From the NCBI GenBank assembly GCA_021018995.1, contig CM037598.1, positions 72,868,671-72,932,670 of the forward strand: 64,000 bases of DNA, written 5' to 3'. Below the pieces are notes generated by a model, which did no database searches, was not told the origin of the DNA, and was given only the letters and a program-made list of their open reading frames with translations. The number at the start of each line of letters is the position of its first letter. Position 1 is the stretch's first letter. A program made the position numbers and the translations under genes. This document shows positions 9,810-59,546 of this stretch, one piece after another. The stretch comes from Chloranthus sessilifolius (taxonomy: Eukaryota > Streptophyta > Magnoliopsida > Chloranthales > Chloranthaceae).

Positions 9810-10373
9810 CTTGGTCATTTCGTTCCTAATTTCTTCAAAACTTATGGGCTGTGCGAAAGGGGGTAAAAGGTTCATCTCGGGAACATACACGGGAAAACAT
9901 TCCAAAGATTCATGAATGTGGTGCAAGTTAAAAAGATACTTACGACCATTGATTTCGGTCGTAATGGTGCTAGCTTCCCTACCCTCTTTCAGATGCTGGC
10001 AAAATAACCTAACTAGCCTAGGGTAATAATAATCATGCAAGGGCTTCAAGAGATTACCGAGGCCCACATCAATGAGGTATTTTCAGGCCCATTTCATCTC
10101 ACCCTCAACCTCAGAATCCACAAACAGAGCTTCGTCGATAACATATTCATTCTCAAAGATCTTCGTGGCCCACCACTCATTAGGTTGCGGTAATTGGCCA
10201 GGTTGAGGTGGTGGTGGTGACGATTGGCGCGATGATGCCTCCATCGAATATGATGACGAAGAGGAAAGTGAAAGTGAAGGTGAAGGTGATGGTGGTGGTG
10301 GTGCAGTGTTCTTACGTCGTACGGGTATTTTAGAAGCCGCTTGCTTCGAAGCTAGCCAAGTTTTAGGTGGCAT
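9810..10373 (-). pseudogene. Accessory gene of D downstream of integrase, cut by element A
   Basis: The start ATG at 10373 (MPPKTWLASKQAASK) is followed by a basic N-terminus, a Ser/Pro low-complexity stretch, then an acidic WWATKIFENEYVIDE block and, nearer 10050-9850, YYYPRLVRLFCQHL followed by INGRKYLFNLHHI. The pattern 'reach the field, then G-x-x-[FY]-x-hydrophobic' recalls the plant transposon protein families PF20167/PF04195 that ride in Ty3 elements, but this is a weak match from memory. It has its own promoter: TATAAG near 10617-10623, then a leader with a splice-donor-like GGTAAGCCC near 10458. Element A entered at 9810; anything encoded past that point is LTR of A. I could not show that the gene belongs to D rather than to another element abutting it. 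Position and the shared motif cluster favour D. Confidence 0.5.
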
Positions 10374-10629
10374 TCTAGGGTTTTAAGGTGAATATTTGAA
10401 ACCTAGGGCTTTAATTTACTCCAATTACATGGAAATTGGTGAGATTTAGGGCTTACCGTGCATAAACGATTCAATGGCTAGGGTTCTTGATTTGATTTTG
10501 ATCCTGAAGCCCCTAAATCCTCGCAGGTGGCGCTAGCCAAAGGAAGAAGAAAGGCGCCCAAAATTAAAAAGAAATAGTTTGAAATTTGAATGGGAAGAAA
10601 ATTCCCCAAAACTTCTACTTATAGGCAGA

Positions 10630-10875
10630 AATCGATTAATTGATTTCAAAATCGATTAATCGGTTTTTACTACTCAAACTCAACTGCTCGAAATTGATTA
10701 ATCGATTTCAAAAATTGATTAGTCGATTCTCAAAATCGACTAATCGAATTTAAGTCGATTAGTCGAATTTGACTTATATTTCTTTCCAGGTCCCTCAGCT
10801 CACTGATGTGAGCCAGTCGTTCGATCGAACCATTTTCGATTAATCAAAAATCAAAATCGATTAATCGGTTTTGAC
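10630..10875 (-). promoter_or_regulatory. CGATTAATCG motif cluster upstream of the D accessory gene
   Basis: About eight copies of a palindromic word built on AATCGATTAATCGATT or AATCGACTAATCG lie just upstream of the TATA box at 10617-10623. One member, near 10817, reads TCGTTCGATCGAACC and is close to the word of LTR I. The same word makes the cluster in the D LTR at 17724-18020. Confidence 0.8.
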
Positions 10876-11176
10876 AGAGCTCTTAAAATTTTGATTCCTG
10901 ATTCTCCTTCATTAGCTTCTTTCTTTTTGTCAGGTTCACTATGGCTTTTACGTTAGCCACTAACTGACATGTCTTACGCTTCTCATGACGTGTTATACAT
11001 TCGTTTCATGATGCAAATACCATCATGCTAAATATTTTTGATTTCACAAAAGGTCCATTTCTAGCCAACATTTTTCTTTTCATTTCCTCAATAAAGTTGA
11101 CATAGACGTGCGAACTTTCACTTACATACACATGTTAAATTTTTACAAAAATAAACGCAACAATACAAGCGTGCTC
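10876..11176 (-). other. Spacer between integrase of D and the accessory promoter
   Basis: About 300 bp, AT-rich, with no open frame, no LTR terminus and no obvious polypurine tract. It is most likely 3' untranslated sequence of the D polyprotein unit. Confidence 0.5.
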
Positions 11177-12635
11177 TCAGTTCTCCTCAAACAAGTTTGG
11201 ATATTGTTCCCTCACATCCGCCTCGCGTTCCCAAGTAGCTTCTTCGGCTGGATGATTCTTCCACCTGACAAGCACTAAAGGAATCACCTTGCGTAAAACT
11301 TGCTCTTTTCTATCTAATATTTGGGCTGCTTCTTCTATCATGTTCATGTCTTCGTGCATTTCGATCGGCTAACCTCCCACGATAGGTGTAGGGTCATTTA
11401 CATACTTTCGGAGCATGGATACATGAAACACGTTATATACCCAATCAAACAATGGAGGCAATCCAATGCGATAAGCGACCTCGCCGACTCGACCCAAAAC
11501 CTCAAAGGGTCTAAGGTAAAGGGGACTCAACTTTCCCCTCTTCCCAAAGCTCATGACGCCTTTCATGGGCGATACCTTTACGAGCACATGCCCACTAATG
11601 GCATAGTCCACGCTCGTTCTTTTGATATCGGCATAGCTCTTCTGTCTGCTTTGAGCCAATTTAAGTCTCTCTCTTATCATATGAACAACAATGGCATTAT
11701 CTTCAAGTAACTTCGGCCCCAATACAAACTTTTCACCGGTCTCTTCCCAATTGATAGGCGATCTACATCGCCTTCCATAGAGAGCTTCATAAGGTGCCAT
11801 TCCAATGCTCACTTGAAAGCTATTGTTGTATGTGAATTCGACCAACGGTAGATGTTGATCCCATGATCCTTGTAATTCAAGCATACACGCTCTGAGCATG
11901 TCTTCTATTACCTGATTTACCCGCTCCATTTGTCCATCGGTCTGTGGATGGAATGCTAAACTAAAGTCCAATCGCGTACCCATGCCTTCTTGAAACTTCT
12001 TTCAAAATTTTGAAGTATATAATGAGTCACGATCAGAGACAATGCTACTAGGAATCCCATGCAACCGTACTATCTCCTTCATATGCAACTCTGTGAGTCT
12101 TCCTGTTGTGTACTTTGTGTTGTAGGGTAAGAAGTGAGCTGACTTAGTCAGCCGATCAACGACTACCTAAATAGCATTGTATCTCTTTGTTGTACGCGAT
12201 AATCATACAATAAAATCTATGGAGGTTTGATTCCCACTTCCACTACGGTATAGGTAGAGGTTGCAACAATCCAGCGGGGTGTCTGTGGTCCACTTTCACC
12301 TGCTAACATGTCAAACACCTTGACACGTACTTGGCTACGTCTTGCTTTAGACCTCTCCACCAGTAACTCTTCCTCAAGTCCTGATACATTTTGGTGCTAC
12401 TGGGCTGAATTGCATATCTAGATTTGTGAGCCTCATCTAAGATATTTTGTTGTAGATTAGCATCAACTGGAATGTAAAGGCGTCCCCTGAATAGTAAGGA
12501 ACCATCCTCTTTCACCAAAATTTCTAGTTTGGTTTCCTCAATCACATCTTGTCGAATTTTGATTAATTCAGGGTCTTTCATCTGTAGCTCGTGAATATGC
12601 TCAAAGATCATCGGTCTTACTGTGATGTTGGCCAA
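11177..12635 (-). pseudogene. Integrase with C-terminal chromodomain of D
   Basis: Minus-strand cues are an N-terminal zinc-binding region around 12430-12300 (HKSRYAIQPSSTKMYQDLR, then WWRGLKQDVAKYVSRC), the catalytic-core end DFSLAFHPQTDGQMERVNQV near 11970, and the GPKLLEDNAIVVHMIRERL and KLSPLYLRPFEVLGRVGEVA C-terminal region near 11700-11480. The chromodomain VRWKNHPAEEATWERE ends at 11177. Integrase joins the cDNA to host DNA; in chromoviruses the chromodomain is thought to guide it to heterochromatin. Domain order and spacing are normal for the family. The reading frame is broken. Confidence 0.9.
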
Positions 12636-12836
12636 GAAAGTCCCTGTAGCTTACACCTCGATATTTACATCATACAATAAAAGATCTTCAAACAACTTCC
12701 ATCTATGCATCCCCATGATCAGATTAGCTAACTGAGCCGAACCCTTACGACTCAAGACATCTGCTACGACATTTACCTTACCTGGGTGATATTGTATGGA
12801 GCAATCATAATCCTTGAGAAGCTCCATCCACCTTCG

Positions 12837-14699: not shown

Positions 14700-15850
14700 T
14701 TAAAAGAAAATGTTACCTTGGATAATGTCATTGATATTTTGTGCTTCCTGGGCAGTAACCGCATAGGCTCTTCCTTGCACGACCGACTTCTTTGATTGTA
14801 TCTGTCTAGGCATGGAAGCAGAAGTCGTTCTCTCTTTATTCATCTCAGGGCAATCTCGGATCAAGTGGCTTATCTTCCCACACTTGAAACAACCCTGAGT
14901 ACCCCGCCAACAAGCTGCCGTTTTGTGAGACTTGCCACACTTGACACAAGTCTCAACTGTAGTAGAAGATGCTGCCCGTGAGAAACCCTGGGAGACTGAT
15001 GCTCTGGTAGTGGTAACAAGGTTTTCATATCTGATCAGCCTCCTAGACGCAAGCATAGGTAGTCTAGGATAGTTTGTCTGCGTCGGTCTAACGAAACCCA
15101 TCTGAAACTATTACCTCTGAATGGGTGCTATGAATCGTGGCTTTTTGTTCACCGGCTCGTAGTTTCCCACTTTACTCTGCTCCATCCTCCCCCTTCCTTG
15201 TTGGTCTCTTCTCTGGTATCGATCCTCGTTATCTTCCTCGATCACCAGAGCCTTACTCATAACCTCTCCATAGGTCTTCAGCTCAAAGGCCGCCACTCTC
15301 CCCCTAATATTCGGCCTCAAGCCGCGTTGAAGCCTCTTGGCTTTCATCAAGTCGGTAACCACGTAATCAGGAGCAAAGCGAGCGAGCCTCATAAACTCTA
15401 CTCCATATTCCCTTACTGACATCTTTCCCTTTTCAAGTGAAAGAAATTTTACTTCCATTTGGTTACGCATGACTTCAAGGAAATATTGTTTATTGAATTC
15501 GATCACGAATTCATCCCATGTCCATGGCAATCCTGGGGTTTCCTGAGCCCTAGTCCTCGACACAGACTTCCACCATGGGCCTGCCTCCCCATCTAACATA
15601 TATGCCGCCCAACAAACACTTTCATCTTCAGTGCACGTAAGCACACTGAATACCTTCTCCATCTCACTTAGCCAATTCTCTGCATCCATTGGCTCTGCTT
15701 GTCCTCAAAAACTCGGTGGACGCATCCTCCGAAACTCTGTGAACACTGAGGGAAATGGCAGTGTAGTACCCACAGGAGGCGTAGGTGGTGGCTGATGCTG
15801 GTCATTGGCATTATGTGCTGCCAAGGACGCCACTTGCTGAGCCGTGACAT
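14700..15850 (-). pseudogene. gag of D with zinc knuckles
   Basis: The minus-strand capsid-like region lies at about 15690-15110: DAENWLSEMEKVF, then CTEDESVCWAAYMLDGEAGPWW and REYGVEFMRLARFAPDYV, all standard in chromovirus gag. Near 14950-14850 two Cys/His arrays follow: CVKCGKSHKTAAC and CFKCGKISHLIRDC. The second is a canonical CX2CX4HX4C knuckle that binds element RNA. The N-terminus near 15850 is Gln/His/Pro-rich, and the leader from about 16190 to 15850 shows no other gene. Confidence 0.85.
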
Positions 15851-16203: not shown

Positions 16204-18618
16204 TGTGATAGCCCAGATTTTGACACCCTGAAACCTGCGCCTTCGGCACCACCCTCGAGGCCATGCCCCATATACATGCACGGAATAATTGGTAAATCCA
16301 CACAACTAGAGAGTAAAACATGCACTAAATAGCTAATACAGAACTAAAACTCCAATTTTATAAGATTAAACTAACAACATATAGCCTAAAAGATAGTTCT
16401 GATCTCATGCCACTGCATGAGAAAAAGAACCAATCTGAACCATCGGTGACAAAACAACCGTCACCCTAGATGATTCACCAAAAGAATGTCTCACTAAAAT
16501 TACATTGTCTTATATAAAAGGTTGGATATACCAAGCCGTACAATTTCTCTCTCAAAAATCTGTCAACGTATGCAGAGGGCCCTCTAGAAGAAATCCTCAG
16601 GAGGGGGCTCTGACTCCTCCTCAGGCACATAATCAGAATCCTCCAGATCAACGTCTCCCGAAGCAGCGGCAGCAGCTAACACTGGATCTGTGACGTATAG
16701 TTGGAGTGAGCTACATCATAGCACAGTAGGGAATCAACTGAATGAACATATAAGTTTATCTTACTCACATATATTCCATGACATTAGAAACATGATTTAT
16801 CAATAAAAGATAGCTGGAAAAATAGTTTAAGTTACTGAAAGCTTGAACTGGATGCATCTGTTACTCTACATGTATTAACTTGTTTTCAACTTGTTCACAC
16901 GGGCCAGAAGATCAATTTTGAAACTTAAATCAAATAACTTAAATAATCCTCGAGCAATATAGCATCGAGCCCCGATGGAATACCCACCATCGTCATCCAA
17001 TTGAACTATATTTCAATGTAACATAACCCAAGTCCCTTTCTCCTAGGCGACGGGGCACATAACTCATGTACATCCCTGGGATGTCTTACTGGTGTACGGA
17101 TTGGCCATCGTACCAGTCACGAATATTCTGCCGAGTCAGTCACTGGTATTTCGTCGAGTCGGTGGGGTATTCTACGAACCTCAAATTAATTATGCAAAAT
17201 ACATAGAATTTATCACCATGTAATTGTGCTAATTATAATATTCAACGTTTGTTCAAGGCTCATTCACATAGTTTCTCATTTGACTATACATCCCTGGGAT
17301 GTCACATACTCATATGCATCGCCTAGATGCTCACATCTCATATACATCCCTGGGATGTCATGCACTTATACGCTTACTGGTTTCTTACTTAGTGTACACA
17401 CATGCACACACCTCTTTAATTCACATGCTTAAGCTCAATTTTGATTAACAAGCAAATAACTATGCTCTTAACACACGCATGTACATATCACATCACTACA
17501 TATATAATTTCGTAATTAAGGGTACATGTTCAGGGTATTCCCTACCTCACATGCTTTAGCCCCAAACATCAAGGTCCAAAGTAGCTTTACGTGCTCATAT
17601 CCAAGTGCTCAACCTAAAGTACATCATATCATACACAAAGCATCAAGAACGATGCATGAAAGAAGGGTACAAGGCCCTCCCAGAACTCTGCGGTCAAAAA
17701 TATAACCCAAACTAAAACTGTCAAAATCGATTAATCAATCACAATATTGATTAATCAAATTCCCAAATTCGATTAATCAATCCCAAATCGATTAATCGAA
17801 AATCCCAAATCGATTAATCGATCCCAAAATCGATTAATCGGTTTTCCAAAACCTAGACTTTTCCAGCCACTGAAAGTACCCAGTCGAGTAATCGATTCCA
17901 AATCGATTAATTGAAAACTAAAAATTGATTAATCGAATTAATTGGTTTCGTGCTTTAGTCTCCAGAATTGATTTCTAACAAAAATTGATTAATCGATTCT
18001 AAATTTGATTAATCGATTTTGCCAGAAAACTGCCATCTTCGGGCTATTCTTCCAACTTTCTTTTCTTACAAATTTTCCCTTTTTTCTACTCCTTTAATTC
18101 ATCATACATTCAATAATGTTATGCACAAATCATACACATCCTAAATCAATGAAATCTTACCTCAAATCCAACGTATAGATGATTCAATGGCTTGAATCAA
18201 AAGCTAGGGTTCTTAGCTTCGACTCCAACTATGCGTTACCTTCGAGATTAACCGCCCACGTATGGCTTCAAATCCGAAATTCCACACCAAATCCTTGGCA
18301 TTTACTCCTTCTCCCTTACTCACACACTCTCTCTCTCTCTCTTCATAAATTCCTAACCACCAAAATCAAAGAGAAATAACTTCTCTTTAACTAATACCTA
18401 TTTAACCCATTCCACTTCTTTGGTGCAAAGTACGCACACCTATAACAGGTGTATGTGACCTTATAACAAGACCCACACCACACACCTTAGTGTACTTTTC
18501 ACCTCAAGCCTAGTCTAGCCTAAGTTATTAAGTTGACTTTCACTTGATGAAACTTACGACCAGTCGAGCACGTATCTCGAGGATACTATTCTAAGCCTAA
18601 ATTTTTGGGGATGTTACA
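16204..18618 (-). repeat. 5' LTR of D, Tekay-like
   Basis: It starts TGTAACATCCCC at 18618 and ends near TATCACA at 16204 on the minus strand, about 2.4 kb. Landmarks shared with LTRs H and I are a splice-donor-like GAG/GTAAGA near 18163, the word cluster at 17724-18020, then GAGGTAGGGAATAC near 17555-17540. Further along come repeated CATCCCTGGGATGT blocks around 17060-17360 and a GATGG-GTATTCCATCGGGG block near 16985. Its word cluster differs from those of H and I. Confidence 0.85.
17724..18020 (-). repeat. CGATTAATCG word cluster in the D LTR, about ten copies
   Basis: About ten copies of a word with core GATTAATC and flanks usually AAATC-/-GATT lie between 17724 and 18020. Several are perfect palindromes (AATCGATTAATCGATT). 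The cluster lies 598-894 bp into the LTR, downstream of the leader donor. H and I have other words at the same offset. Confidence 0.9.
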
Positions 18619-18667: not shown

Positions 18668-18952
18668 GAGCAACTCGATCAATCGATTGTCGAAAATCAA
18701 TCGATCGACTGATGCATCCTGAAAACGTATTAATTTGTTCACATCACACATCAATCGATTGAAATTTCAATATCAATCGATCGATGTAGGGTTGATTCGA
18801 ATTTCAAGAGTTTAGAAACTTTCTCGAATTAATTGACCAGCCTAAAACTAGTCATTCTTATAAATAGAATGGTTTCTTTCATCCGGTGGTCAAACTTCCA
18901 AAGTTAACATGTCCATCGATTGATTTTCATTAATCAATCAATCGACCGTGGT
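18668..18952 (+). repeat. ATCAATCGATCGATTG word cluster around the E0 promoter
   Basis: Copies of a word with core AATCGAT lie at about 18676-18712 (three), 18752-18760, 18772-18786 and 18913-18950 (three), on both sides of the TATA box at 18858. A second group is at 19915-20030. Half-sites face each other, for example ATCAATCGATCGAC and CAATCGATTG. Confidence 0.8.
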
Positions 18953-19914: not shown

Positions 19915-20030
19915 CAATCGATCGATTGAACTATCAAAATCGATCAATTGACTAACAAATACTATTTGAGCAATTTTTGAAAATGGGCGCAATTTAATCG
20001 ATTGATTTTTGAAATCAATCAATCGACTAA
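19915..20030 (+). repeat. Second ATCGATCGATTG group in E0
   Basis: Five or so copies occur: CAATCGATCGATTG near 19916, AATCGATCAATTGAC near 19938, TTTAATCGATTGATT near 19992, and two of AATCAATCAATCGAC near 20010-20030. It lies 150 bp after the ATGAGGACATTG block. Confidence 0.75.
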
Positions 20031-22752: not shown

Positions 22753-24309
22753 TGTAGACACCCAAATTTGGCCCAAGGCCCGATCAAAACATACTTCGAG
22801 AAGGATGCACCACCAAGCTTCTAATAGCATTCCCCAAACCCTTAGGAATCATTCCAAACCCTTAGGAATCAACCTCAATGTTTCCGGAACCCTTAGAACC
22901 CATCCCGGACCAGTTTCTGAACCCTCCTAAGTAGTGGTTGAAAAGAGGAGTTATAAAGTTTACATTGATTTTTTTTAGAGCCAAGTTATATGCCATTGGA
23001 AAGAGGTCTTTCCTAGCTTTCTAACAAACTAAGAATCACCTCATTTTGATATAAAGATCAAAAGTTATGGCAATTTGTAAATTGGGTTGTTTGACTGGAT
23101 GTTGCTTGGCGTGGATAATATACACACTAGGCCATTTCTTTCCAAAAATGGCTTGGCGTGGATAATACACACGCTAGGCAAAAATTGGTCTTCTTCCTCT
23201 CGAACAGAGCCCCTCGACGTGCTTTGAACCTCTTGAGGCACTGTAGCTATGCCCAGCATGGATAATACACACACCAGGCTTAGCTATAATAACTTCTGGA
23301 TTTAGCCCGAATTTCACTTTTGGGATTTGACTTGTTGACCATCCCAATATTTAGGGTAGGTTTTATTAGGACTGTTTCACCCTCATTTACCCTATTTGCA
23401 ACCCTCTAGTCATTTGAAACCTCATCCTATCATCTACCATTGAAGCCCATTGCCCATATATCCATAACCTTAAGATCCTAGGAAACCTTAGATATTAGGA
23501 TTACCTAATTGTTAATCCCATTAGCATTTAAGTACTCCTTAACCACCCCCATTCTCTATAAATAGAGAGGCACTCCTCCCATTACAAAGGTTTGAAAAAA
23601 TTTCCAAAAGAGAGAAAAGAGTAAGTGATCCCCCATCTCCCATTTCAGCACTAAACCCATAAAATTCTAGAATTGAGTTCATCTCTTTCAATCTCATTTT
23701 CCATCATCAATCTCTCGATTTTGGTAGGAACTAGGCCTTAATCCTCTTCTCCTATCCTCTAGCTTCCTAGCCTTAGAATTTAGAACCCATCCAACAACTC
23801 ATTTGCTATCGGAAGCTTATCGGCGCCGCTCTCGCGCGAAGGACCACATCGATGCTACAAGGGCTTGAGAGCTCCGGCTCTCCCATCTATTCCTCTACCT
23901 TATTCGCTTTTCCTTTATCCTAGAATTGAGCCATTACGCAACCCAAATTTTGGCAAGTGGGAAGGGCTCAATAGGATCAGTGTGCCTTCGGGCAAGGGGA
24001 AGTGCCGCTCATTTTCTTTTCTTATATATATATATATAATTATATATATTTTATATACACAGCCAAACAGCCATAGTAGAGACTGCTTACGAGCGGGTTA
24101 GTTGGGTGCCTAACACCTTCCTGATCGATAACCGAAGCTCCTACCCAAGAACCTTTGGCGTAGACCGAAATCAGAGTCATATTTGGCACTTCGGTGCATT
24201 TAATATTGATTTAGGTTTCCCGGGACACCAAAAGCTCCGGGTGGCGACTCTATACTTTTCACGAGATCACATTGTCGCGACGGGTTTGATAAAAATCTAC
24301 GGTTGCATA
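22753..24309 (+). repeat. 5' LTR of B
   Basis: TGTAGACACCC start, CCCTTAGGAATCA repeats near 22830-22915, palindrome cluster 23104-23280, TATA box CTCTATAAATAGAG near 23555, and a (TA)n run near 24024-24050 in U5. The end is TTGCA(TA). It aligns with the 3' LTR throughout. Confidence 0.85.
23104..23280 (+). repeat. U3 palindrome cluster of B (TGTA/GTGG type), three units
   Basis: Units begin near 23104, 23151 and 23251; the first two are exactly 47 bp apart. The arms are CTTGGCGTG/CACACTAGG and similar, around a GATAATA centre. The 3' LTR has the same three units near 33001, 33048 and 33148 with the same spacing, and its first unit has perfect 9-bp arms CCTAGCGTG/CACGCTAGG. Confidence 0.85.
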
Positions 24310-24311
24310 GA

Positions 24312-24329
24312 TGGCGACTCTGTTGGGGA
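24312..24329 (+). other. Primer-binding site of B
   Basis: TGGCGACTCTGTTGGGGA follows the LTR after the short spacer. It differs from A's site at one base. tRNA not assigned. Confidence 0.75.
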
Positions 24330-29370: not shown

Positions 29371-29379
29371 CTAGAAAAT

Positions 29380-30245
29380 TAAAGAAAATGATGCCTTAAC
29401 AGAAAGAGGAATCACGAGTCTGAACGAGGAAATCCCTTTTGAGGAACTTCCCAATGAGCTCCTTGAACGGTACACCGATTTTGAGCATGGTCCTACCCCG
29501 ATTGTTGAAGAAATTGAGGATGTCAATATGGGTACCGATGAGGTTCCTAGAATCACCAAGATTGAACCGTCACTGTTTCCCAAGAAAAGAAAAAGCATGA
29601 TTGATTTCCTTCGATCATACCAAGACGTCTTCGCATGGTCATATGAGGATATGCCTGGTCTGGATACTGATTTGGTCGAGCATGAGCTGCCGTTATATGG
29701 AGATGTTAAGCCGATCAAGCAAAAGTTGAGACGTCTCTGGCCAGAGTGGATGCTGAAAGTAAAGGATGAAGATATCAAACAATACGATGCGAAGTTTCTC
29801 GTAGTCTCCAAGTACCCTCAATGGTTAGCCAACATTGTCTCGGTACCGAAGAAAGATAGAAAGGTCATATGCATTGACTTTAGATATCTGAATAAGGCGA
29901 GCCGAAAGGATGACTTCTCATTGCCACACATCGACATCTTGGTCGATAACATTGCTAAGCATGGGATGTTGTCGTTCATGGATGGATTTTTTAGATACAA
30001 TCAGGTCAAGATGGCCAAAGCAGACTGAGAGAAGACAACGTTCATTACTCTATGATAAATTTTCTGTTACCGAGTCTTGTCATTTGAAAAATTCAAGCTC
30101 AACTGGGAACGACCTTATGTCATCCGAGAGGTGCTGCCTGGATACAGGCTTCGCCTTGCCACCATGGACGGAGATAACTTTTTTGAGCTCATCAATAGTG
30201 GATACGTCCGACGATTTTACTCCTAGTCTCTTGCAGCAAGGTAAA
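29380..30245 (+). pseudogene. Remnant of pol in B: RT N-terminal half and integrase tail
   Basis: RT cues are FLRSYQDVFAWSYEDMPGL, PKKDRKVICIDFRYLNKAS and DILVDNIAKHGMLSFMDGF, close to A's RT. Near 30090-30235 the C-terminal end of integrase is recognisable (WERPYVIREVLPGYRLRLAT). Most of pol between these is not present in this copy. B could not have moved by its own enzymes in this state. Confidence 0.8.
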
Positions 30246-31455: not shown

Positions 31456-31488
<33 letters not shown>

Positions 31489-34217: not shown

Positions 34218-34222
34218 GCAGA

Positions 34223-43093: not shown

Positions 43094-45489
43094 CATCCAC
43101 ATATAAATACGGAAATCAAAGCAGATATCATATGTATGTAAAAATAAAATTTAGATATCACAAGCCAGATCTACTCTTTTCTACTGTATACATAACATCC
43201 AACCCAAAAGACTAAAGGAAAACACCGATGATGGCCGACCATCACCTAAACAGTGGCCTATAAACATACTTCCAAATTAATCTTTTTAACATTGAATTTA
43301 GTCATTGGACATACCAAGTCCAAATATATAAAAGTCTATAAAATCCACCATATAAATCAAAAACACGCCCAATCCAAGCCCACAACTAGGGTAGAATTTC
43401 CCAAACGGAGGATCCTATACCTTTCTCCAGCTCCAGATCAAGATCAACACCTGTGCCTGTGACGTATAGTCGGGGTGAGCTAACATCCAAGCTCAATAGG
43501 AGTATATCAAAAGTATTTATATTATCACAAAAACATAGATTCCATGACTAAGTTTCACGATTTAACACATTTCACATAAATCATCTGTTAAAAAGAAACA
43601 TGAACTTACTCAAAACAGAATTTAACACACTTTCACAAATGTCATTTGATTTTCTAAATTCTTATTTGCAACTTCATATTTTGTTTCACATTCTTTCTTC
43701 ACATCTTATTATACTTAAAGCAACGACTTAAATTACCGCCCCAAGCAAATATAGTATTGGGAGCCACGTTATTATTATACCGATGGGAATCCTAATCATC
43801 GTCGTTCAATGAACCTTATCATGAAATTATCGTTGGCCGGTATTAGATGAATGGATATCCCGCCGTACCGGAGCACAATGAACGGATATCCCGCCATATC
43901 GAAGCACAATGGATTCGTTATACTAAACCTTAAATAAATGTGTAGATAATAACTTATAGTTTCACACCGTGTAAAGTGATTTAATTTATAATTAGATTTA
44001 GGATTTCATGTACTTGCTTATCACATTCACGTTTACACTTATCACATTCATGCTCACATTTGCATGAATTACTTATCACGTTAACACATATTTCTCATTT
44101 TACCATTGGTCGGTAAGAAATGAACGGATATCCGCCATACCGGAGCACAATAAATGATGAGTTACTTGTCACGTTTACACATATTTGTCATGCACACTTA
44201 TCATGTTCACAAACACTTATCATGTTAACACATACACACACGTGCTCATCATTTTTTCACATTTTAAATCACATGCTTTAAATCCGTGTAAAAAGCGCAA
44301 ACACAACAAAATCACATCCTTACTTACCACATCAAAATTTCAATGCATTCGTATCAATATAAATGATATAGAATATTCCCCTACCTCAAGTAATGCTTTA
44401 AATATTCCACATATAATCCTCTTGCGAAATCCCACATAAGCTCAACACTTTAATCCTACATTCAAAGTGTCCCAATACCCCTTAGGAAATGCTTAAGAAA
44501 ACCTAACAATACACATTTCCAAAGAATTCATACAAAAAGAATCCAAATAAACTTGACTGTTTCTCGTGCGAGCAAGCCTTGGAGCTCGGGCGCGCGAGCT
44601 CAGAAATACACATGGACTTCGGGCGACCAATGGGATTTTAGCCTACTGAAGCTAGGAACGCGAGCCCTCACGCGAGCGAGCTTATAGTTCACTTAAGTCC
44701 TCGTGCGAGCGAGTGTCAGAGTCTCAAAGGCACTTATGCCTTCTGAAGGCCTCTCGCGCGAGCGAGCTCTGGAGCTCGGGCGCGAGAACCAAAGTTCTTG
44801 CAGATCTGAGTTTTTTCTTAACTCGATCTTCTCACTTTTTTTCTCTAATTTCTCCCACACTTCTTACACATCTTATAAACCATGTTATTCATAAAATTTA
44901 CCTACTTTGAGTATCGTTTTCTCACCTCTAATCCAATGATTCACTCGAAGATCGGAACGTCTTCCTTCCTCGCAAGTAAATGGGTTTCCAAACCCATTTT
45001 GATCTCTCCAAGCTCCACACTCACCATGACGCCGACATAATCGTATGGTTATCTTTCACACGATGATCCTGTGATTCAAAACACACAGATTCAAGCAAGC
45101 AAAAATCCTATCTCTTCAAACCCTACTTCTCTTTCTCTCCTCTTCGTTTACAACAAATGAAACTTCAAAAGGAAGTTTCACTTAAACACATGGACTGGGT
45201 TCTATGCTAAGCACATACATCCATTTGGGTGATAGTTCTTATCCACTTATCCACAAGGCTTGGTTCCGGTGTGAAGCTCATACACTTAAGTTAATCCTTA
45301 GCTCCCTTATCCAAAGGTCCACGGTCGGCTCAAATAGTTGGCCCACCAATTTAAATAAGTTTTTTTAATCATTAATAAACTTTAATTTTTCCACAAGCCT
45401 TGCCGCTGGGCTGCACACACGCACAATGTGTCATTTCAGGCACGCTCACTTAGTCAGTTCGTGCGGGTTCAAAATTTAGGATTATTACA
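43094..45489 (-). repeat. Tekay-like LTR H, main part
   Basis: On the minus strand it starts TGTAATAATCC at 45489, right after a polypurine-type tract (plus strand TTCTTCCCTCTTTAAAG), so it is a 3' LTR. Landmarks shared with D and I are a donor-like GAG/GTGAGA near 44928, the word cluster 44571-44788, then TTGAGGTAGGGGAATATTC near 44390, and the GGAATCC-TCATCGTCGTTCAATGAACC type block near 43790. G is inserted close to its end. Confidence 0.8.
44571..44788 (-). repeat. CTCGCGCGAGCGAGC word cluster in LTR H
   Basis: Copies read CTCGTGCGAGCAAGC (44572), GAGCTCGGGCGCGCGAGCTC (44582), CTCACGCGAGCGAGC (44667), CTCGTGCGAGCGAG (44700), CTCGCGCGAGCGAGCTC (44752) and GAGCTCGGGCGCGAG (44772). CTCGCGCGAG is itself a palindrome. 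The cluster lies 701-918 bp into the LTR, the same place where D and I carry other words. Confidence 0.9.
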
Positions 45490-46778: not shown

Positions 46779-49082
46779 TGTAACGTCCCGAAAAATTCAA
46801 ACTTTGAATAGTGCACCTCGGGAAGTGTGCCCAACTGGTCGCTTGGTTGACCGGGTCAAGGTCGGTTTGGTTTACTTACTTGGTTAAATTTAGTTAAATA
46901 AACTAGATGTAAAATATGGCATGTGTGTAATAAGAGAGATAGATTGGGTCATATATACCTAGCTAGGTATGTATGCTTTACACCCAAATAATGAATAGGA
47001 TTATAAAGAGTGGGGAGAATTTATTTCTCCTTAGCTTAGGTTGTTGAGAAATTAAGAGGGAGTGAATGAAAGGAGTGTGATTTTGTGGTGAAATCAATAG
47101 CTGCGTATTAAATGGGAATGATTGTGTGTGGATCAGATAGCTTACGAATTAGAGCCTTTGCATCAGAAAAAAAAAGATTTGAGATTTGGGGTTGTGAAAC
47201 CCTTGAAGTTTAGGGAAGCTTGGGATCATGGGATCCGACCAACTAGAAAGGTAAGTTAGATTATTTTTGTGAAAACATATTGATTTTACTATGAATCTAG
47301 CTGCTATGTAAGGATAAAATGAGTTAGAGGGAGGTAGATGTTGAAAGGATGAGTCCTAAAGGTTAGAACACGACCTTTTCTGAAAATGAGCAAAACCGAT
47401 CGAACGGAATTAGTAACCGTTCAATTGATTTTGCCAGAGAAGAAAGGACTGCAGTGCTGTGTTCTGAGGAAATCGTTCGAACAATTTAAAAAAATCGTTC
47501 GATCGGTTTTATTAATGAATAAAAGCAAGTATAAAGGATTTCTAAGGAAATTGATCGAACGAAATAAGACCGTTCAATCGATTTGCCAAACCATTCAATC
47601 GATTTAAAAATCGTTCGATCGGTTTGGGCTGATTTAGGCCTTTGTTGAGATTTACTTTATGAATTGTTTATAAACAACGTTTAGGCTTCCAAGCTCCACG
47701 TTTTACACCATTTATGATACATTGCACGTGTTTTGGCCATGCCTAGGTTGAGCCAGACCTTAGGATGGTTAAGGCTAGCTTGGATTGCAGAATCCGTGGA
47801 TTTAATTGCGTATGAGGTAGGGAATACTTTGGACATGTACACTTGATTACGAAAGCATGTATGTAGTGATATTATGTGTATGCATGTGCGTTTAAAGCAT
47901 AGTTAAGTGCTTGTGGTTTAAAAGTATTACGATAAGCATGTAAAATTAAGATATGTGTGTGCGTGTGTACACTAAACAAGAAATGAGTAAGCACAAGAGA
48001 TGTAACATCCCAGAGATGTTTATGCAATGTGAGCATCTAGATGATGGCTGTGAGTATGTGATATCCCAGGGATGTGAAATCAATGTGAATATTTAGATAA
48101 TGTGGTCTATGTGGATGAGACTCGAATATGCTTTGAATAATTATACTTAGCATAATCACACGGTGAATAACTATATGTAGGGGACAATTGATTTAAGGTT
48201 TGGAAAATATCCATACACCAGTATGACATCCCAGGGATGTATGTGAGTTTTATGCCCAGTCGCCTCTGTGAAAGAAACTTGGGTTGTATGACATGAAAAA
48301 TAGTCTTATTGAACGACGATGGAGGGTATTCCATCGGGGCTCAATGCTATATTGCTCGGGGATTATTTAAGTTATTGATTTAATTTTGTGACACAAGTCT
48401 TTGTATGATATGAGAACGGGTGGAACAAAAAATAACATGTGTAGTGTAACAAATGTATTTTGTTCATTCTTCCAATATTTCAAACTGTTTTCTATCTGTT
48501 TAATGTTGATAAAATCATGCTTTGATTATGTCATGGAATATGTGTGAGTAAGATAGATTTACATGTTTAGTTATTTCCCTATTGAGTTATGATGTAGTTC
48601 ATCCCTCGACTATACGTCATAGGTACAGGTGTAGATCATGATCCGACTGCGGAGAAAGTCTTGAGATCTCCCGTTTGGGAAATTTTACCTTAGGTGAGGT
48701 TTGGGCATGGGTATGTTTTGGAGTTTGTATAATGAATGTTTTGAGGTCTTTTGGATTATAGACTTGATATGTCCGGGGATCTATTACTGTATTAAGATTT
48801 ATTCTGTAGGTATCTTTTTGAGGCCACTGTTTAGGTGATGGGTGGCCATGACCGGTGGTTTTCTTGTGGGCCCTTCTTATTCAGTCTTTACGTATAGAAG
48901 AACCTTTATTGTTGTTATATTTTTACTTTGACTCTACCCTTTGTTGGCATATCAAGTAAATTCTATATTAGGATCGTGATATGTGCGACCCGACAGTTTG
49001 ATTTTCCTTGAGTTTATGATGTAAGAAAGAAAAAAAAATATTATGCAGATTTTTGTGCCTTAAGGAAAATCGGGCTGTCACA
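46779..49082 (+). repeat. Tekay-like LTR I, apparently solo
   Basis: It starts TGTAACGTCCCG at 46779 and ends GGGCTGTCACA at 49082, 2.3 kb. No primer site or gag follows, so it looks like a solo LTR. The flanks AGAGA and GTAGA agree at three of five bases, too weak to call a duplication. Landmarks are a donor-like AAG/GTAAGT near 47250, the word cluster 47392-47625, GAGGTAGGGAATACTTTGG near 47814, CCCAGGGATGT blocks near 48010-48240, and GGGTATTCCATCGGGG near 48326. Confidence 0.8.
47392..47625 (+). repeat. AATCGTTCGATCGGTTT word cluster in LTR I, eight copies
   Basis: Copies begin near 47392, 47416, 47470, 47492, 47549, 47569, 47588 and 47607, in alternating orientation so that neighbours form inverted pairs. 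The best is AAAATCGTTCGATCGGTTTT (47492). Flanks AATCG and TCGGTTT are shared with the D word, but the centre is TTCGA where D has ATTAA. Confidence 0.9.
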
Positions 49083-52890: not shown

Positions 52891-53044
52891 TTTTATTGAT
52901 TTTTATATTTATTTTTTATTTGATCGGGATTTTTATTGATCCCAAATCATGTATTTTAGCACAGCTTCCCCAGCAGGTCAAATGGAGATTGATGCGCTCC
53001 TTGGGGCGTGTGCACCTTCTTGTGCCCTAGGGGAGAATAAGCTT

Positions 53045-53162
53045 ACCATGTGTAATATACACGCCAGGCCAAATCTGACAGGTTTATACCTAGCGTGTAT
53101 ATTATACACGCTAGGCCAAATCTGGCAAAAACAAACCTAGCGTGTATATTATTCACGCTAGA
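53045..53162 (+). promoter_or_regulatory. Palindrome cluster upstream of the first antisense gene
   Basis: Three units, exactly 47 bp apart by matching ends (53066, 53113, 53160). The middle one, 53089-53115, is a perfect 27-nt palindrome with outer arms CCTAGCG/CGCTAGG, inner TGTA/TACA and centre TATTA. Spacers read CCAAATCTGGCA or similar. A CTCTCGCCGATCAA block 160 bp further on also occurs after the cluster in B's leader (near 25420). Confidence 0.9.
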
Positions 53163-53701
53163 CCAAACAAGGGTTTTAAATCATGTCGGGCCCGAGCAAA
53201 ACAGGGCATTTTTCAAAATATTTTCTTCCCCCTCTTTCTAAACTGAACCGGGACCTCCTCCTAGGGTTTAATTGAATCGATTTGAACCCCGACATTGCAC
53301 CGGCGTCTACTCTCGCCGATCAAATGCACATTCTACTCCAGATCAAGGGTTTATTTTCTTTTTCCAAATAATCATCTCTTAACCCTATTTCTTTTGATTT
53401 GTCTTGCATTATTTTCAATGTGGTTAGGATTCTTGCATTTTTAGATGATAAATAGATATTTTTTCTATAAGTATGATCGTTTATGATCCGTTTGATTGAT
53501 TTTCTGTGCATCGGCATTGATTTGCGTGGAAAACTTGATGGAATGGTTCCCTACTCTTCTTTTTTTTCCCCTCTTTTTTTCTTTCTTCTTCTTTTTTTTT
53601 TGGATTTTCTTGGACTATTTGCTGGTGTGACTAGGGCCTTTTGTATCTAAAAATGATTTTCTGTGATGAATTTTTTATATCCACACATGGATTTTTGAAA
53701 A

Positions 53702-53753
<52 letters not shown>

Positions 53754-53934
53754 TTTTTTTTCAAATGTGGGGGGACCACTCTAGGATTGCCCCTCTTGAT
53801 GTTGTTATCGAAATGATGATGATCATGATTGATGATGAATAAAAGGGGGCATACTTACCTTCTTTAGGCCTGTTGCAATTGGTTTCCCCTTACTGATATT
53901 CTCCTAACATTCGCAGCTTGTGCTCTTTTGAGGA
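53163..53934 (+). other. Leader or first intron of the plant-mobile-domain gene, with (TA)n
   Basis: No coding signal. It has a CT-rich run near 53555-53605, a (TA)n tract at about 53703-53747 and a TTCGCAG acceptor-like site near 53917 just before the ATG at 53935. This suggests a leader with a long first intron. Confidence 0.5.
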
Positions 53935-56310
53935 TGTCGAGTGAAGAGGAGCAGGGTAATGAGGGTGGTCCTGACGTGATCTATGGTACCCGGGGGGAGC
54001 AACTTATTCCAGTGTAGCGTTCTTCTCGGATCTGGTACGAGATGCAGGGTGAGGGCAGCCCGCAATGGGTTACTCCACCAACAGTACACCCACATTTCTA
54101 ATTTTGGGATCGTCGGTCAAGTAAGAAATAATCTTTTTTTGGTTCCCTTTGTGCGAGCTTTCTTTGTTCCAAGACCTGACACCTCCTTCATTTTGCAGCT
54201 GTCTTTGCCCTCGATCATGTTTCGCAAAGGTTGGCACGACCTCCAACGTCTTTATATCTTCCTCCCTCTGGTTGTGAGGTTCCTCTTAGCCCAGGCTGGC
54301 TTCGGGGACTTTCTTTCATGCCCTGCCATGAGGGGAAATTCGGCCTATGTGAAGGCCTTGGTAGAACGATTTTGACCCGAGACTATGACCTTCCATATGT
54401 TAATGGTTGAGATGACCATCACCCCAGTTGATTGGTTGATGATCACAGGGATCGGGATGGGGAGTATACCGGTGGCTGGTCTTTGCATACTAGTTCGGGA
54501 TTAGGTGGTTTAGTTGATCGGGGATTACCCCTCCTCTCAGGATATGAACGGCTCCGAGGTCAAGTTATCCTGGTTGGCCGATCTGTTTGAAGAGAATGAA
54601 TTGTGGATCAAAACCAGCCAGACATGGATGTCGTTATTAAGCCTGAAAGTGCATTGATGTTGGCTCGTATCTCACTCCTCTTTCTCCTAGGCAAGACTCT
54701 TTTTGCCAATGCTAGTGGTGGTCAGGTCTCATTATCCCTACTCAGCCTTATGGGAAATTGGGATCATGTGCATCTGTATGATTGGGGCGGTGCTAGGTAC
54801 ACCATAATGATGCCCAACTTGGCTCGAGCTTCGGTTGGGGACTTGGGGACTTGGGTTCTGTTCTCGATATTTGGCCCGTGATAGAGGTAAGCCCTGACTC
54901 TTTTACTCCTCTTAGTGCATTATTTATTTTTATTTTTTTGTGCCTATGTTGTCTTTCATGTCTTCTCCTTCTTTCAGATCTGGGGATACTTACATTTTCA
55001 GTCAGGCCGCCCCCTCCTTTTCTCATATGAGTTCACATATCCCCTTATGAGTAGTTGGCATAAGAGCCGTCGTAGAGACCTGGGAATGAAGCATTTGGAG
55101 TTAGGCCTGAGGTCCCAATTTGATTTAATGATCCCAGAGCAGGTATGGATACTTCTCTTTTCTCTTTCTTAGAGAGATTTTTTTTGGTGATGTTTGTTTT
55201 ACTAAAGGACTCTCTTTATCTGAGTAGATCACCCTTGATCCTTATGTTGGTTCTCCCTTTTGGGATCGAGTTGCCGTGGGCTAGTCTCGACTATTCGTGG
55301 ACCATCGGGTTATCTTTTTCTACGGTGTTTGGGTCAGAGCCTACTATTTGGGAGAGAGAGTAGTGCATTAGTACCGAGATTATTTTGCTATGCCGTGGGG
55401 TCCTCCCGGGGATGTCATGTCTCCTGAGGGTATGATTGAGGAGCTCTCAACTGGGCTCCTCCACCACAGGATCCCCGTTGATGATATCTTTGACCATGGA
55501 GGGAATCTGACGTGGTATGAGTCCCTTCCCTACCGGTCCATCCTTCCGCGCTTTGTACCTGGTGCCAACTTTCTAGCCTTTGGCAGTCCACAATCTTAGG
55601 TAATCCTCCTCATCCTTTATGCAGGTTCGTGATAGTTTTGATTTGATTTTGATCTAACTGCCTGGGCCTTTGCTTCTTTCTACAATTTGATGGGGGAGAT
55701 GATTCTGATGAGGATGATGCAGTGGCAGGCCCTGCCAAGGCTCCAGGTGCTGGACCCTCAGACCCCTCTAGTAAGGGTATTTATGGGAGTTCGACTATAG
55801 AGACTCAGGGGGGCTTCAGGCGCTTTGACGATGCCTTCCTCTCAAACTTATGTGTGAATGTAACTGAGCGGGTCCGCCTATCTGCTGAGGCGATCCAGGT
55901 CCCTCCTCCGGTGCTGGTCCCAAGGGTGAGTTTTCTTTCCATCATATTTCCTTTCCAAGGAAATGCTTGCTTTTGTATTATGGCTCCTGCAACTAACTTC
56001 TCTTTTTCTTTCTTTATTGTAGGATTACGAGTCAGCTATTAATCAAGCAGAGTACTATCACCACATCACAGGCCTTCGAGATGTGGAAGTGGTAAGTGTC
56101 ACACCGCTTGACTTTGATTATTGCTTTGCTGCCCTTTACCTTTTAACTGACCTCAACTGATGATTTTTCGGTATGATCTGTAGCGTGCTCGTGAGAAGGA
56201 GTCTTGCTCGTTGCTCGGCAGGCTTTCTCAGGCATGGTCAAGAGTGGGGGACATTAGGACATATCAAAGTACCTCGCGCCGGCATAAGAAGGCCAAAGGC
56301 ACTGATTAGA
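53935..56310 (+). pseudogene. Plant-mobile-domain (PMD-like) accessory gene, decayed
   Basis: The start ATG at 53935 reads MSSEEEQGNEGG. The best domain cue is near 54215-54480: GWHDLQRLYIFLPLVVRFLL, NSAYVKALVERF, then TFHMLMVEMTITPVDWLMIT. That is the 'reach W, then T-F-H-x-x-x-[GV]-E-x-T-[VI]-T' block of the plant mobile domain (PF10536), known in host MAIN-like proteins and inside several transposons. Several GT-AG intron borders are plausible, for example 54121-54198, 54887-54977, 55141-55228, 55925-56023 and 56091-56183. The C-terminus is basic (RRHKKAKGTD). It is interrupted in several places. Alternatives are a host MAIN-like pseudogene that only abuts C. The palindrome cluster before it, shared with the retroelement, favours an element gene. 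Confidence 0.6.
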
Positions 56311-56763
56311 ATCAACGTTTTTCTAGTTCTGATGAATATTTGAGACTTTTAGGATATTTTTCTTTTTATTTCTTGAGAAGATGTAATGGATGATATGAGA
56401 ATACACTTCAGATGGTTTTCTTTAGAATGAATGTTAGTGCTTTCCCTTTCTATTGGCTGCTCTATCTCTTCCTTTTGGCCGTGACATACTTGATTATCTG
56501 CAGGGCGGACTCAGGTTTTTTTTTTTTTGAAAAAATGGCCTTTGGGCCATGCATTTGGTTTAATACTGGCCAAACCTTGTATGTCTATGCGGATGGTTCC
56601 TGAATGAAAAACCATATAGAATTTAAATATCAATTTTTTGTATTCCAGCACGTGATCTAGAGTGATTTGAATAAATAGTAGAAAGTGTAGGTGGGCTGGC
56701 TAGAGGGCCGGTAAAAATAATCTCCCTAAATCCCCCTCTCTCTCTCTTTTTGGTGGCATTTCT
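56311..56763 (+). other. Spacer between the two antisense genes
   Basis: About 450 bp of 3' untranslated-like, T-rich sequence. A short hydrophobic frame at 56412-56603 has no homologue I know and reads through low-complexity T runs. A TC run precedes the next palindrome cluster. Confidence 0.5.
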
Positions 56764-56936
56764 GGCCTACCATGTGTAATATATACACTAGGAAATTCTG
56801 GGAGGTAATTGGCCTAGCATGTATATTATACACGCTAAGCATGCCCTCGGGATTTTTGGCTTAGCGTGAATAATAGACATGCCAGGCAAAATCTGGGAAA
56901 TTTTGCACTAGCGGGTGTACTACACATGCTAGGTGC
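56764..56936 (+). promoter_or_regulatory. Palindrome cluster upstream of the second antisense gene
   Basis: Four units start at 56764, 56811, 56858 and 56905, exactly 47 bp apart. Arms are GGCCTAGC/GCTAAGC-like, with TGTATATTATACA-like centres; units 1, 3 and 4 have drifted. The cluster ends 144 bp before the next ATG (57080). Confidence 0.9.
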
Positions 56937-57079
56937 TTTCTGGGGAGTGCGGGGCCTTTTAGGCCCGAGAACACACCTTTTCTCTTTCTTTTTAACTGGG
57001 TCTTGTATTTTCTGCTTTCCGCTTTCTGACCCCACCTCGCATTGGGGGTCCGGGACCTTTATACTTCCCTCTTCAAGTA

Positions 57080-58514
57080 TGGGGCCCAATTTTCTAACGA
57101 AAAGGCTTGAAAGCTTGAATGAGAGCGAGCTTGCGGATTTGGATCAGCTTGGGCCCATCTCTCATCCTTCCATGGAGTCCCTCCGCTTTGGGATCTTATT
57201 TATGCGGCAGCTTCTTTTTGGGAAGTGGATACCCATGTCTTTCATTTTGGGAACCGCTAGTTAACTCCCACTCTTGAGGAGCTCTCCAGCCTGCCAGGTT
57301 TGAAGTTGCATAGAAGCTTTGCTAGGGTAGTGCCAAAACTAGGTTACGCTAAAGCCGTCCACACGACTTTGGGTTTGAAGAAAGCTGATTATGAGAAAAG
57401 CCTCGTTGGTGGGCCCACCAGGTGTTCGATGAAATTCCTGAGAGAACTTTTTGGCGATGAAAGCTTGCAGAAATTATTGATTAGAAATATCTGTAATGTA
57501 AAGTCTTTTGCTCTCTGTCTTCTCTCGGAGGTCCTTTTCTACACTGGGGGAGAGAGTTTCTCACTTGCATTTTGTGATGTCCTGGCGGAACTCCATAATA
57601 CAAATGGTTTTGGCAGAAATTTACCGCTGCCTTGATGCCTTTTCTTTGGGCAAAGTTGAGTACCTCCGGGGATGCCCTATCCTGTTCCAAGTCTAGTGTG
57701 GGGAGCACTTCACTATTTTGGGGCTTGTGCCTCGCTTCTATGTTGTTCGTGGTGAGGCGGCTCGCTGCTTTTTGGGTCGATGCCATAGGTTGCCGCAGGG
57801 GAATATACAAGAGTTGAAGCTTTGGTTGGCTGAGGCTGAACTGGTGTGGAGGCTTCCCTGGTTAGATAGGACTTTTACAGTAGTTCGATCTAGAGATTAC
57901 GAGGGCATCACTCTTCTTGGTTTGACTAATAGAACCTACTACTTCCCATTTTGGGTGCTGCGCCGGCTTGGTTGTTCTTAGCAGGTGCCCTGTGCGATGA
58001 AACCACCCCTATGTGACTTGATTTTTTCTCGAGGATCCTCTGGGGACTTGGATAGGATAGCCGCTCTCTGAGAAAAGCATCAGTCGACGCACATGTGCGA
58101 TCAAGAGCAGGGGAATCTGATTTTGTCTTCTCCAGAGTATGAGGCTTGGCTACTATCTGAGAGGCCTCCTGCCTGTTGCCTGGACTAGGCAGAGAGTAGT
58201 GATGCAGGGGGACCTTGGCCAAAGAAGGAGTCGACGCTTTGAACCCGTATTGAGCTGCTGATAGATGAGAAGCGAGTCCTGCATGAGCAAGTAGAGAAAC
58301 AAAAGGTTAGAGCAGAGGTGGTGAAAGCACAAGCTTGTGTAGCTGAGTGTGAGGTTCTTCGTGTGGGAGGAGCCTTGAGTGACGCTCTTGGTGCTACTGA
58401 TGTCTCCCAGAAATGATATAAGAGCCTTCACTGCCACTGAATGACAGATCGGGATGTTCAGGAGGATGATTTACGTGCAGAGTTCCATGCCCTAAAGCGC
58501 GAGTTGGGTCGTTG
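57080..58514 (+). pseudogene. Second antisense accessory gene, DUF7745-like, decayed
   Basis: The start ATG at 57080 (MGPNFLTKRLESLNESEL) follows the palindrome cluster. Cues are LRFGILFMRQLLFGKWIPM, a FHFGNR then LTPTLEELSSL block near 57240-57290, and LGLKKADYEKSLVGGPTRCS near 57370-57425. The 'HxFxFG-x-x-E-L-T-P-T-L-E-E' pattern is what I remember of DUF7745 and related plant-mobile-domain-like proteins in Ty3 elements. The C-terminal part near 58250-58510 is charged (RVLHEQVEKQKVRAEVVKAQ) and probably coiled coil. The frame is interrupted in several places. The domain name is tentative. Confidence 0.45.
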
Positions 58515-58832
58515 ATTCCATCCCTCAGACTTCTTTTTACATAGATCAAAACCATAGAAGGGGACATATGAAACCCCTGTTCAGATACATCTTTTTGGTA
58601 TAGATATTTTCTTTATGTTTTTTGTCTTTTCAACTTTTGTAAAAAAGAAAGGGACGCTAGACATCACACCGATTATTTTTTGAGATGTGGTGCAAGTATA
58701 GTACAGACACGTAAATGGAAAAGGGAAATTTATTATCTTACATAAATTTTATCTTTCTCTCTTTTTTTTTTGAAAAGGGGCAAACTAGGTATTATGCCGA
58801 TCATCCTTTTGGGAAGTGGTGCACACAATGTC

Positions 58833-59075
58833 GGCCTGAAAAATGGGAAAGGAAAATTTATTATCTTTTACAAACGTGGTCTTTCCGGTCATCAAACTAA
58901 TCATCCCGGAGTGAGGTGTGCACAGTGCTGGCCTGAAAATGGGAAAGGAAAATTTATTATCTTTTGTAAATGTGGTCTCGTTGGTCATCGAACCAATCAT
59001 CCCGGAGTGGGTGTGCATAGTGTTGGCCTGAAAATGGGAAAGGACAATTTATTATCTTTTGCAAATGTGGTTCTC
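58833..59075 (+). repeat. 96-bp tandem repeat after the second antisense gene
   Basis: GGCCTGAAAATGGGAAAGGA recurs at 58833, 58930 and 59025, each followed by AATTTATTATCTTTTG. A weaker partial copy is at 58717-58745. The unit also holds CATCCCGGAGTG. It is probably 3' untranslated sequence of the gene before it, or the border with the C 3' region. Confidence 0.85.
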
Positions 59076-59109
59076 TCCTTTCTTCATTTATTTGATGCCT
59101 CAAGGTGAG

Positions 59110-59546
59110 TCCCATTCTGAGCGTCGCCAAACCTATTTATGAGGTCGACCCTAAGTGAGGTTCAGTAATTCTTACCAAGGTCGGAATGCCCATCCCTTTA
59201 GATTAAATCGACCTTTTATCCTTACCTCGGGTTGCACATTTGACGGTGTGGTCTAAAGATACACCTGATCAAGATCTGATTTGAGCTAACATGAGCGGCC
59301 CAGTTGGCGACCAGATAAATCGAAATTGTAACCAAGGGAGTAACCGATGACTTTCTCTTTTTTTTTTTTAACCTTTTTTAATCACAGCGCCCAAGATAAG
59401 TTTTTACCATGCCTTTTGCTTCCCTCTTTTTTACCCGTAGCGCCCTTTTAGGTTTTCATTATGTCCATGGGTATGCATTTTTACCCTATATGCCTTTTCA
59501 GGTTTTCACTTGGTCGGCACAAGCTCGCTGTTTTTACCCGTGGCAC
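59110..59546 (-). other. Tat/Ogre-like 3' non-coding sequence in C with decayed stem-loop row
   Basis: On the minus strand this matches B 30850-31280 in order. It includes the GCGAGCTTGTG block, the GAAAACCTGAAAAGG loops and GGGTAAAAA spacers. The stems have lost several pairs compared with B. Many changes look like C to T or G to A. Confidence 0.75.

Follow-up and report, generated by a model that had tools for sequence, protein, structure and literature searches.

Can a long terminal repeat (LTR) retrotransposon recognise its own copies through a protein that it encodes and short sequence words that it carries? The question is raised by a stretch of 64,000 nucleotides of the Chloranthus sessilifolius genome (G000:C15:72868671-72932670; the whole stretch is hereafter called the window), which is filled by nested LTR retrotransposons named D, C, E0, I, G and H, plus a fragment of an element E. 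The initial annotation of the window had noticed clusters of short repeated words in these elements and genes other than gag and pol next to clusters in D and C, and had likened the arrangement to the VANC proteins and motifs of VANDAL transposons. Our analysis, which extended to the searched genome of 2.17 Gb, suggests that the families carry private on-switches: judging from sequence comparisons, changes in the variable middle of the word parallel changes in an extra element-encoded protein. Taken as a whole, the hypothesis of a VANC-like system is partly supported.

Results

Palindromic Words and Their Distribution in the Genome

The C word (GCGCAACTA-W-TAGTTGCGC) and the E word (GCGTGTATA-W-TATACACGC) are palindromes with a common 19-bp layout, GCG-N4-TAWTA-N4-CGC, in which the outer bases and the centre are alike across families and turnover affects the inner 4 bp of either half-site. 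The D word AAATCGATTAATCGATTT and the I word AAAYCGWTCGAWCGRTTT are also palindromes, with a common 18-bp layout. The C/E frame matched the genome 48,037 times vs. 154 times for the reversed pattern, the exact C word 12,638 times vs. 0 for its reversed control, and GCGTATATWWWATATACGC 9,961 times vs. 1 for the control. The places examined for each of these searches were the first 50 listed, all on contig C1. Among the 50 listed frame matches, 25 have identical inner arms, 10 have arms that differ at one base and 15 have two to four mismatches between them; by chance, inner arms with one or no mismatch are expected in 5%. When 24 C-type units from 7 loci were compared over all between-locus unit pairs, the words were 0.91 and the spacers 0.53 identical. 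A homogeneous tandem repeat was rejected, since the spacers between words differ.

Most of the places named in the initial annotation also emerged, as sites of repeated 12-mers, from an unguided scan of the window (3 shuffles per step). In 14 of 15 cluster regions, none of 60 Markov shuffles matched the 12-mer copy number, and in the E0 LTR one of 60 did; the regions were chosen after the clusters had been seen, so that these numbers are optimistic, a weakness of which the whole-genome counts are free. With these counts and the fixed palindromic frame, the cis half of the proposed system proves real and stronger than had been claimed. Clusters were found in D, H, I, C, E and G; the labels A, B and F, under which further clusters had been described, could not be mapped. 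No place in the window scores as both a C word and an E word at up to 6 mismatches, which bears out the family specificity of the words for these two families.

The Same Word at Several Places of One Element

The C element (minus strand) was assembled with the 10 kb left of the window into a joined stretch of 19.8 kb. In sense order, it holds words in the LTR (404-511) and in the 5′ untranslated region (5′UTR; 2451-2564), then gag-pol frames to about 11.3 kb, and an antisense cassette comprising a DUF7745-like gene (14589-13589), words (14735-14853), a gene resembling plant mobile domain (PMD) proteins (17550-15651) and words again (18544-18614). With up to 6 mismatches allowed, the C word is present in each of the four blocks, and the E word is absent from the joined 19.8 kb. 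The TATA box of the LTR, at 909, follows the LTR words at a distance of some 400-500 bp. In window coordinates, the 5′ LTR of C, homologous to the E0 LTRs, occupies 8168-9809, where its start adjoins D; its three words, TGGCGCAACTAWTAGTTGCGCCA, are at 9299-9406, and three more copies, two of them decayed, stand between LTR and gag at 7246-7359 (both clusters on the minus strand, shuffle test).

The E fragment (53044-58530, plus strand) repeats the order of the cassette with E words at 0-5 mismatches. Three words of the TAGCGTGTATAWTATACACGCTA type, 47 bp apart (53044-53160), precede the PMD-like gene (53980-56200), and four words, also 47 bp apart and with 1-5 mismatches to the E word (56768-56931), precede the DUF7745-like gene (57080-58530); both clusters are supported by the shuffle test. 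Identity between the C and E proteins is 42-57% for the PMD-like and 45-66% for the DUF7745-like pair. The DUF7745-like gene of the window is broken, and its PF24924 piece (E 0.025) is itself below the cut-off, yet it groups in the tree with above-cut-off copies and is 82% identical at the nucleotide level over 850 columns to one of them (L052). The DUF7745 label, and with it the presence of such a gene beside the clusters, is firm through these relatives. The PMD-like gene is in pieces, with introns placed by eye. Its PMD label is weak, as it rests on a single match of one piece to PF10536 (E 0.027, 14.1 bits vs. a cut-off of 34.9) and on the homologous gene in C.

The E0 element (22753-34218, plus strand) carries E words at 23107-23276 in its 5′ LTR (22753-24310), this being the weakest cluster of the shuffle test, and at 33004-33173 in its 3′ LTR (32629-34218), where the cluster exceeds the shuffles. 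Further E words stand in its 5′UTR (25237-25306), adjacent to the position to which the C words at 7246-7359 correspond in the alignment.

Elsewhere in the genome, one element of the inner-TATA type shows five blocks of words with gaps of 1951, 13066, 3799 and 2588 (2053, 12289 and 3785 in the C reference); the layout is read from coordinates alone, and the identities of the blocks (LTR, 5′UTR, DUF7745, PMD and 3′ LTR) are deduced from the distances. Other elements show partial versions of it, again by coordinates alone. With its blocks at the usual spacing, the element at G000:C1:35533408-35549839 has words composed of half-sites from two types (CAAC with CATG, and others); it may represent an intermediate in a switch of specificity.

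Promoters of DUF7745 Genes

Of 4408 PF24924 candidates in the genome, 118 were scored, giving 117 listed DUF7745 places, all above the cut-off. From the 20 best-ranked of the 117, about 900 bp upstream of each gene was searched by script, and a 19-bp word was detected once or more in 19 of these 20 loci. The distance between neighbours is mostly 47-49 bp. Past the last scored word, a TATA-like box stands at 25-31 bp in 11 loci and at 38 and 72 bp in two; it was not found by the script in 7, including L056, where a false late word conceals it. The odd one out is L068, whose DUF7745 copy falls inside the K clade. Its upstream region (1-900) is densely set with another palindrome-like word, AACCTATCGACAGGTT (a cluster of 13), probably contributed by another inserted element that has a word type of its own.

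Word Type and DUF7745 Divergence

A nucleotide tree of the DUF7745 stretch was built for 22 copies, i.e., the 20 fetched ones and C and E of the window. The tree requires 7 changes of word type, where the minimum is 6 and the shuffled mean 12.1, and none of 200 shuffles was as low. Without L068 and L069, both included in the 7, the number drops to 5. The nine C-type copies group in a single clade (82/80; none of 500 shuffles as low), with the N type as its sister.

The bases that change are the inner ones. In matched promoter slots, the inner bases are 0.24, the frame 0.79 and the spacers 0.45 identical between types, vs. 0.84, 0.84 and 0.67 within types, a comparison that is partly circular because the types were defined by the words. 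L065 contributed no slot (its anchor was not found), one misplaced non-word slot of L062 was counted, and both this comparison and the Mantel analysis leave out L068 (no family word) and L069 (a single decayed word). The type-free comparison over the remaining 20 loci gave the same picture: inner-word similarity is 0.95 at a DUF7745 identity of 0.90-1.00 and 0.15 at 0.60-0.70, and frame similarity is 0.75-0.90 in all identity bins. Inner-word similarity correlates with DUF7745 identity (Mantel r 0.79, 0 of 2000 permutations as high; Spearman 0.75), with the word rows taken from the promoter scan and the slot comparison and the decayed third slot of L063 omitted. A search of DUF7745 for a hypervariable stretch found residues 1-20 to be the most divergent between-type block (0.41) and nothing decisive.

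The D Family and Related LTRs

The D element (minus strand) begins with its 5′ LTR at 18618-16204 (TGTAACATCCCC ... GGGCTATCACA), the ends of which were located and which matches the LTRs of D copies, where present, at 74-89%; it is interrupted at 9809 by C. About 11-12 copies of AAATCGATTAATCGATTT and its variants lie in the LTR at 17724-18019 (0 of 60 shuffles). A second cluster (10629-10871, shuffle test) stands directly upstream of the accessory gene, and the TATA scan placed a TATA-like CTATAAG 3 bp past its last word. The start of this gene (9810-10376) is broken by a stop and cut off at 9809 by the C insertion, and it matches the PF20167 profile at E 0.039. The sister copy L018 reaches E 1.5e-7 and 32 bits over positions 4-169 of 177, under the cut-off of 45 bits, and a profile-profile comparison with a Camellia PF20167 protein gave a probability of 99.4. 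By these comparisons, the D accessory protein is related to PF20167 (Transposase_32), though its score leaves it under the cut-off and it is not filed as a member. A search of solved structures with this protein gave a single match, at E 0.083. The genome holds 13,856 first-look PF20167 candidates, among them an open frame (L070, G000:C7:129647450-129648150) behind what by eye resembles a copia reverse transcriptase.

We sampled 20 further D copies from 40 scored matches, the window itself being among the 40. Words between the integrase and the accessory gene were present in all 20, which confirms the initial annotation as to a PF20167-like gene beside the D cluster. With the window included, 19 of 21 copies have a TATA-like box 2-7 bp past the last word; in one it is at 42 bp, and in one there is none. 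The H element resembles the D and DUF7745 promoters: its words, TCAATCGATTGA / ATCAATCGATCGA (18672-18952, plus strand, shuffle test), surround TATAAATA at 18859, ahead of an ATG at 19116.

The LTRs of D, I and G are related and carry different words in the same LTR part. The I LTR (46779-49082, plus strand) is homologous to the D LTR in its downstream half and, by LTR comparison and shuffle test, has words of the AAAYCGWTCGAWCGRTTT type at 47394-47625, where D holds AAATCGATTAATCGATTT. The G LTR (about 43097-45489), related to both, has words of the CTCGCGCGAGCGAG type at 44563-44766 (minus strand, shuffle test). Among 19 relatives of the I LTR, selected by the downstream half from 40 scored matches, the word position was I-like in 5, D-like in 13 and of unclear pattern in 1. 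From features of LTR ends and primer sites, we take D, I and G to be Tekay-like and C and E to be Ogre/Tat-like.

Discussion

Taken together, the comparisons make it probable that the word clusters are cis-regulatory sites of a dimeric, sequence-specific protein acting on each family's own promoters. The positions ahead of TATA, the palindromy, the conserved frame and the inner turnover at several places argue for a dimeric protein with shifting specificity, and that the words are bound by a dimer is very likely. Somewhat less securely, we favour a binder encoded by the element itself, because the word pairs with a protein and is found at the accessory genes' own promoters, as expected of self-activation. 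Each palindrome would be the binding site of such a dimer. The sites would comprise, in C and E, the LTR, the 5′UTR and the upstream regions of both antisense-cassette genes (PMD-like and DUF7745-like), and in D, the LTR and the promoter of the PF20167-like gene. The binder, most likely an accessory protein of the element itself, would act in trans on every copy sharing its word and so maintain the activity of the LTR and of the promoter of its own gene, either via direct activation or by holding silencing off. Anti-silencing rather than plain activation seems rather unlikely; the protein-motif pair of VANC is a precedent for it (PMC5735166, PMC10398659). It is conceivable, and we propose it tentatively, that DUF7745 and/or PMD proteins are fast-retargeting dimeric regulators, which would recognise a fixed-frame palindrome with a variable four-base code in either half-site; new specificities would pass through mixed half-site intermediates, such as the element at C1:35.53 Mb, and thereby divide the elements into private, mutually non-activating families.

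Several results weigh against recognition of the words by an element-encoded protein. The initial annotation expected the protein clade to predict the word type; this holds for the DUF7745 tree and the Mantel analysis as a whole and is mixed for single types, none of E, M and K forming a clade by itself (3 changes for E, a value as low in 13 of 500 shuffles; 2 for M, 40 of 500; 2 for K, 500 of 500). A weak correlation with DUF7745 identity exists for the frame as well (Spearman 0.22), and there is no close pair with a full switch, the nearest pairs with inner similarity under 0.4 being 0.71-0.73 identical in DUF7745. The word-protein correlation is in part plain co-descent, as both lie on the same element; inner-base turnover within a conserved frame at several separate places is not predicted by co-descent. 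Four of the 20 DUF7745 loci (L053, L054, L066 and L069) have a single scored word, and L068 has no family word. Among the D copies, word conservation does not significantly exceed that of the surroundings (0.881 vs. 0.844, p 0.30), and L070, the sole PF20167 locus outside D whose upstream region was read (n = 1), has no word cluster. A structure model of a PF20167 protein (P0002) was uninformative, with a mean pLDDT of 37.5. E0 has words but no cassette piece at E 1e-3. Finally, profile comparison revealed no relation among the DUF7745, PMD-like and PF20167-like families (probability under 1), and the two groups of elements are thus not explained by one binder; a single common family of accessory proteins was rejected on the same ground.

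The strongest rival to an element-encoded binder is recognition by the host: transcription factors or repressors of the plant would bind the words, and the elements would merely exploit these proteins. Plant LTRs are known to use host factors, some words contain TAAT or ATCGAT, which we take to be homeodomain-like cores, and host proteins might be the common denominator of three unrelated accessory families. A fixed set of host factors, however, hardly explains why related families have different words in the same LTR part, and the switching of inner bases within a fixed 19-bp frame is hard to explain in this way, as is the occurrence of words both in the LTR and at the promoters of the accessory genes themselves. 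We regard host factors as an unlikely explanation. Neutral concerted turnover, in which slippage or conversion amplifies short repeats that drift family by family with no recognition protein, would account for the near-regular spacing of 47-48 bp and for the D words being no more conserved than their flanks. It is improbable: words so much more alike than spacers do not result from simple amplification of a 48-bp unit, and neither palindromy with fixed outer bases nor the recurrence of a word at four or five separate sites of a single element, over distances of up to 18 kb, would be expected. That the palindromes serve chiefly as RNA hairpins for dimerisation or packaging of genomic RNA is very improbable and was rejected as their main function, for although the 5′UTR palindromes of C and E0 could be kissing loops, many words precede TATA-like boxes, those of the accessory genes lying upstream of the box where one was found, and hence outside the accessory transcripts, and those of the C LTR well upstream of the LTR TATA.

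The proposed regulation of the element by its own protein has known parallels. VANDAL elements, Mutator-like elements of Arabidopsis, combine an element-encoded accessory gene with short family-specific noncoding motifs, and related families hold different motifs that change together (PMC5735166, PMC10398659). Here, too, we found repeats of an element-specific noncoding motif that differs by family with the accessory protein (DUF7745; co-descent possible). The present system differs in that it belongs to LTR retrotransposons, involves other protein families and has fixed-frame palindromes, often at promoters. Our literature searches, from whose coverage subscription papers mostly fell out, found no description of a VANC-like arrangement in LTR retrotransposons.

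According to its title, a study by Pelissier et al. (2025, Nat Plants) reportedly concerns PMD protein-DNA motif modules that counteract Polycomb silencing. The host PMD proteins MAIN and MAIL1 are tied to a promoter motif named 'DOWN' (PMC7156037), so PMD proteins are linked to promoter motifs there as they may be here. Those modules consist of host genes and host promoters, whereas the gene described here, with its weak PMD label, lies within the element beside its own words. PMD-A clades are described as exclusively Gypsy-encoded, and a role of captured PMDs in transposon anti-silencing was speculated on for Mutator-like elements (PMC5418596); PMD is said to occur in 57% of Ogre elements (PMC6317226). 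In Camellia, 175 loci producing phased siRNAs are reported at PMD genes (PMC10673657). Retand, with its antisense TRP28 open reading frames (ORFs), likewise joins an antisense ORF of possible DNA-binding ability and family-specific repeats in the same element (PMC11963269). Its protein, however, is PF04195, its repeats are described as tandem arrays between pol and the 3′ LTR rather than as promoter palindromes that recur in the LTR, and the accessible part of the report draws no link between the Retand protein and repeats (PMC11963269). Additional ORFs are also described from plant LTR retrotransposons, and matching cis sites are not described in the available portions of these papers (PMC7264820, PMC6317226, PMC11728184); those of Tekay have predicted nuclear localisation (PMC11728184). 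In its discussion, a paper on LTR retrotransposon methylation places VANC beside the additional ORF of Tekay (PMC12844716).

If the words are indeed read by element-encoded proteins, sequence-specific self-recognition of transposons, known from VANDAL, would reach the LTR retrotransposons, which make up a large part of many plant genomes, and widespread accessory genes of obscure role would gain a function. There would also be a naturally occurring set of related DNA-binding proteins that differ in their four-base half-site codes, in which protein-site co-evolution is directly testable, and a hint at the origin of host PMD proteins and their motifs.

Other Features of the Window

A second cluster of H words lies at 19915-20029 (plus strand, shuffle test). 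Further above-chance clusters occur in other elements at 39950-40360, 40930-41340 and 59740-60400 (TATGCACTTGAT, CGCGATGGGACA, CTCGCGAAGTTC). At 5578-5861 and 26582-26797, 24-bp repeats around GGGCC/CCCAATGG are located within the proline-rich gag-like frames of C and E0; being coding, they differ in kind from the palindromic words. Downstream of the DUF7745-like gene, 58824-59071 is a tandem repeat of 96 bp in 2.6 copies.

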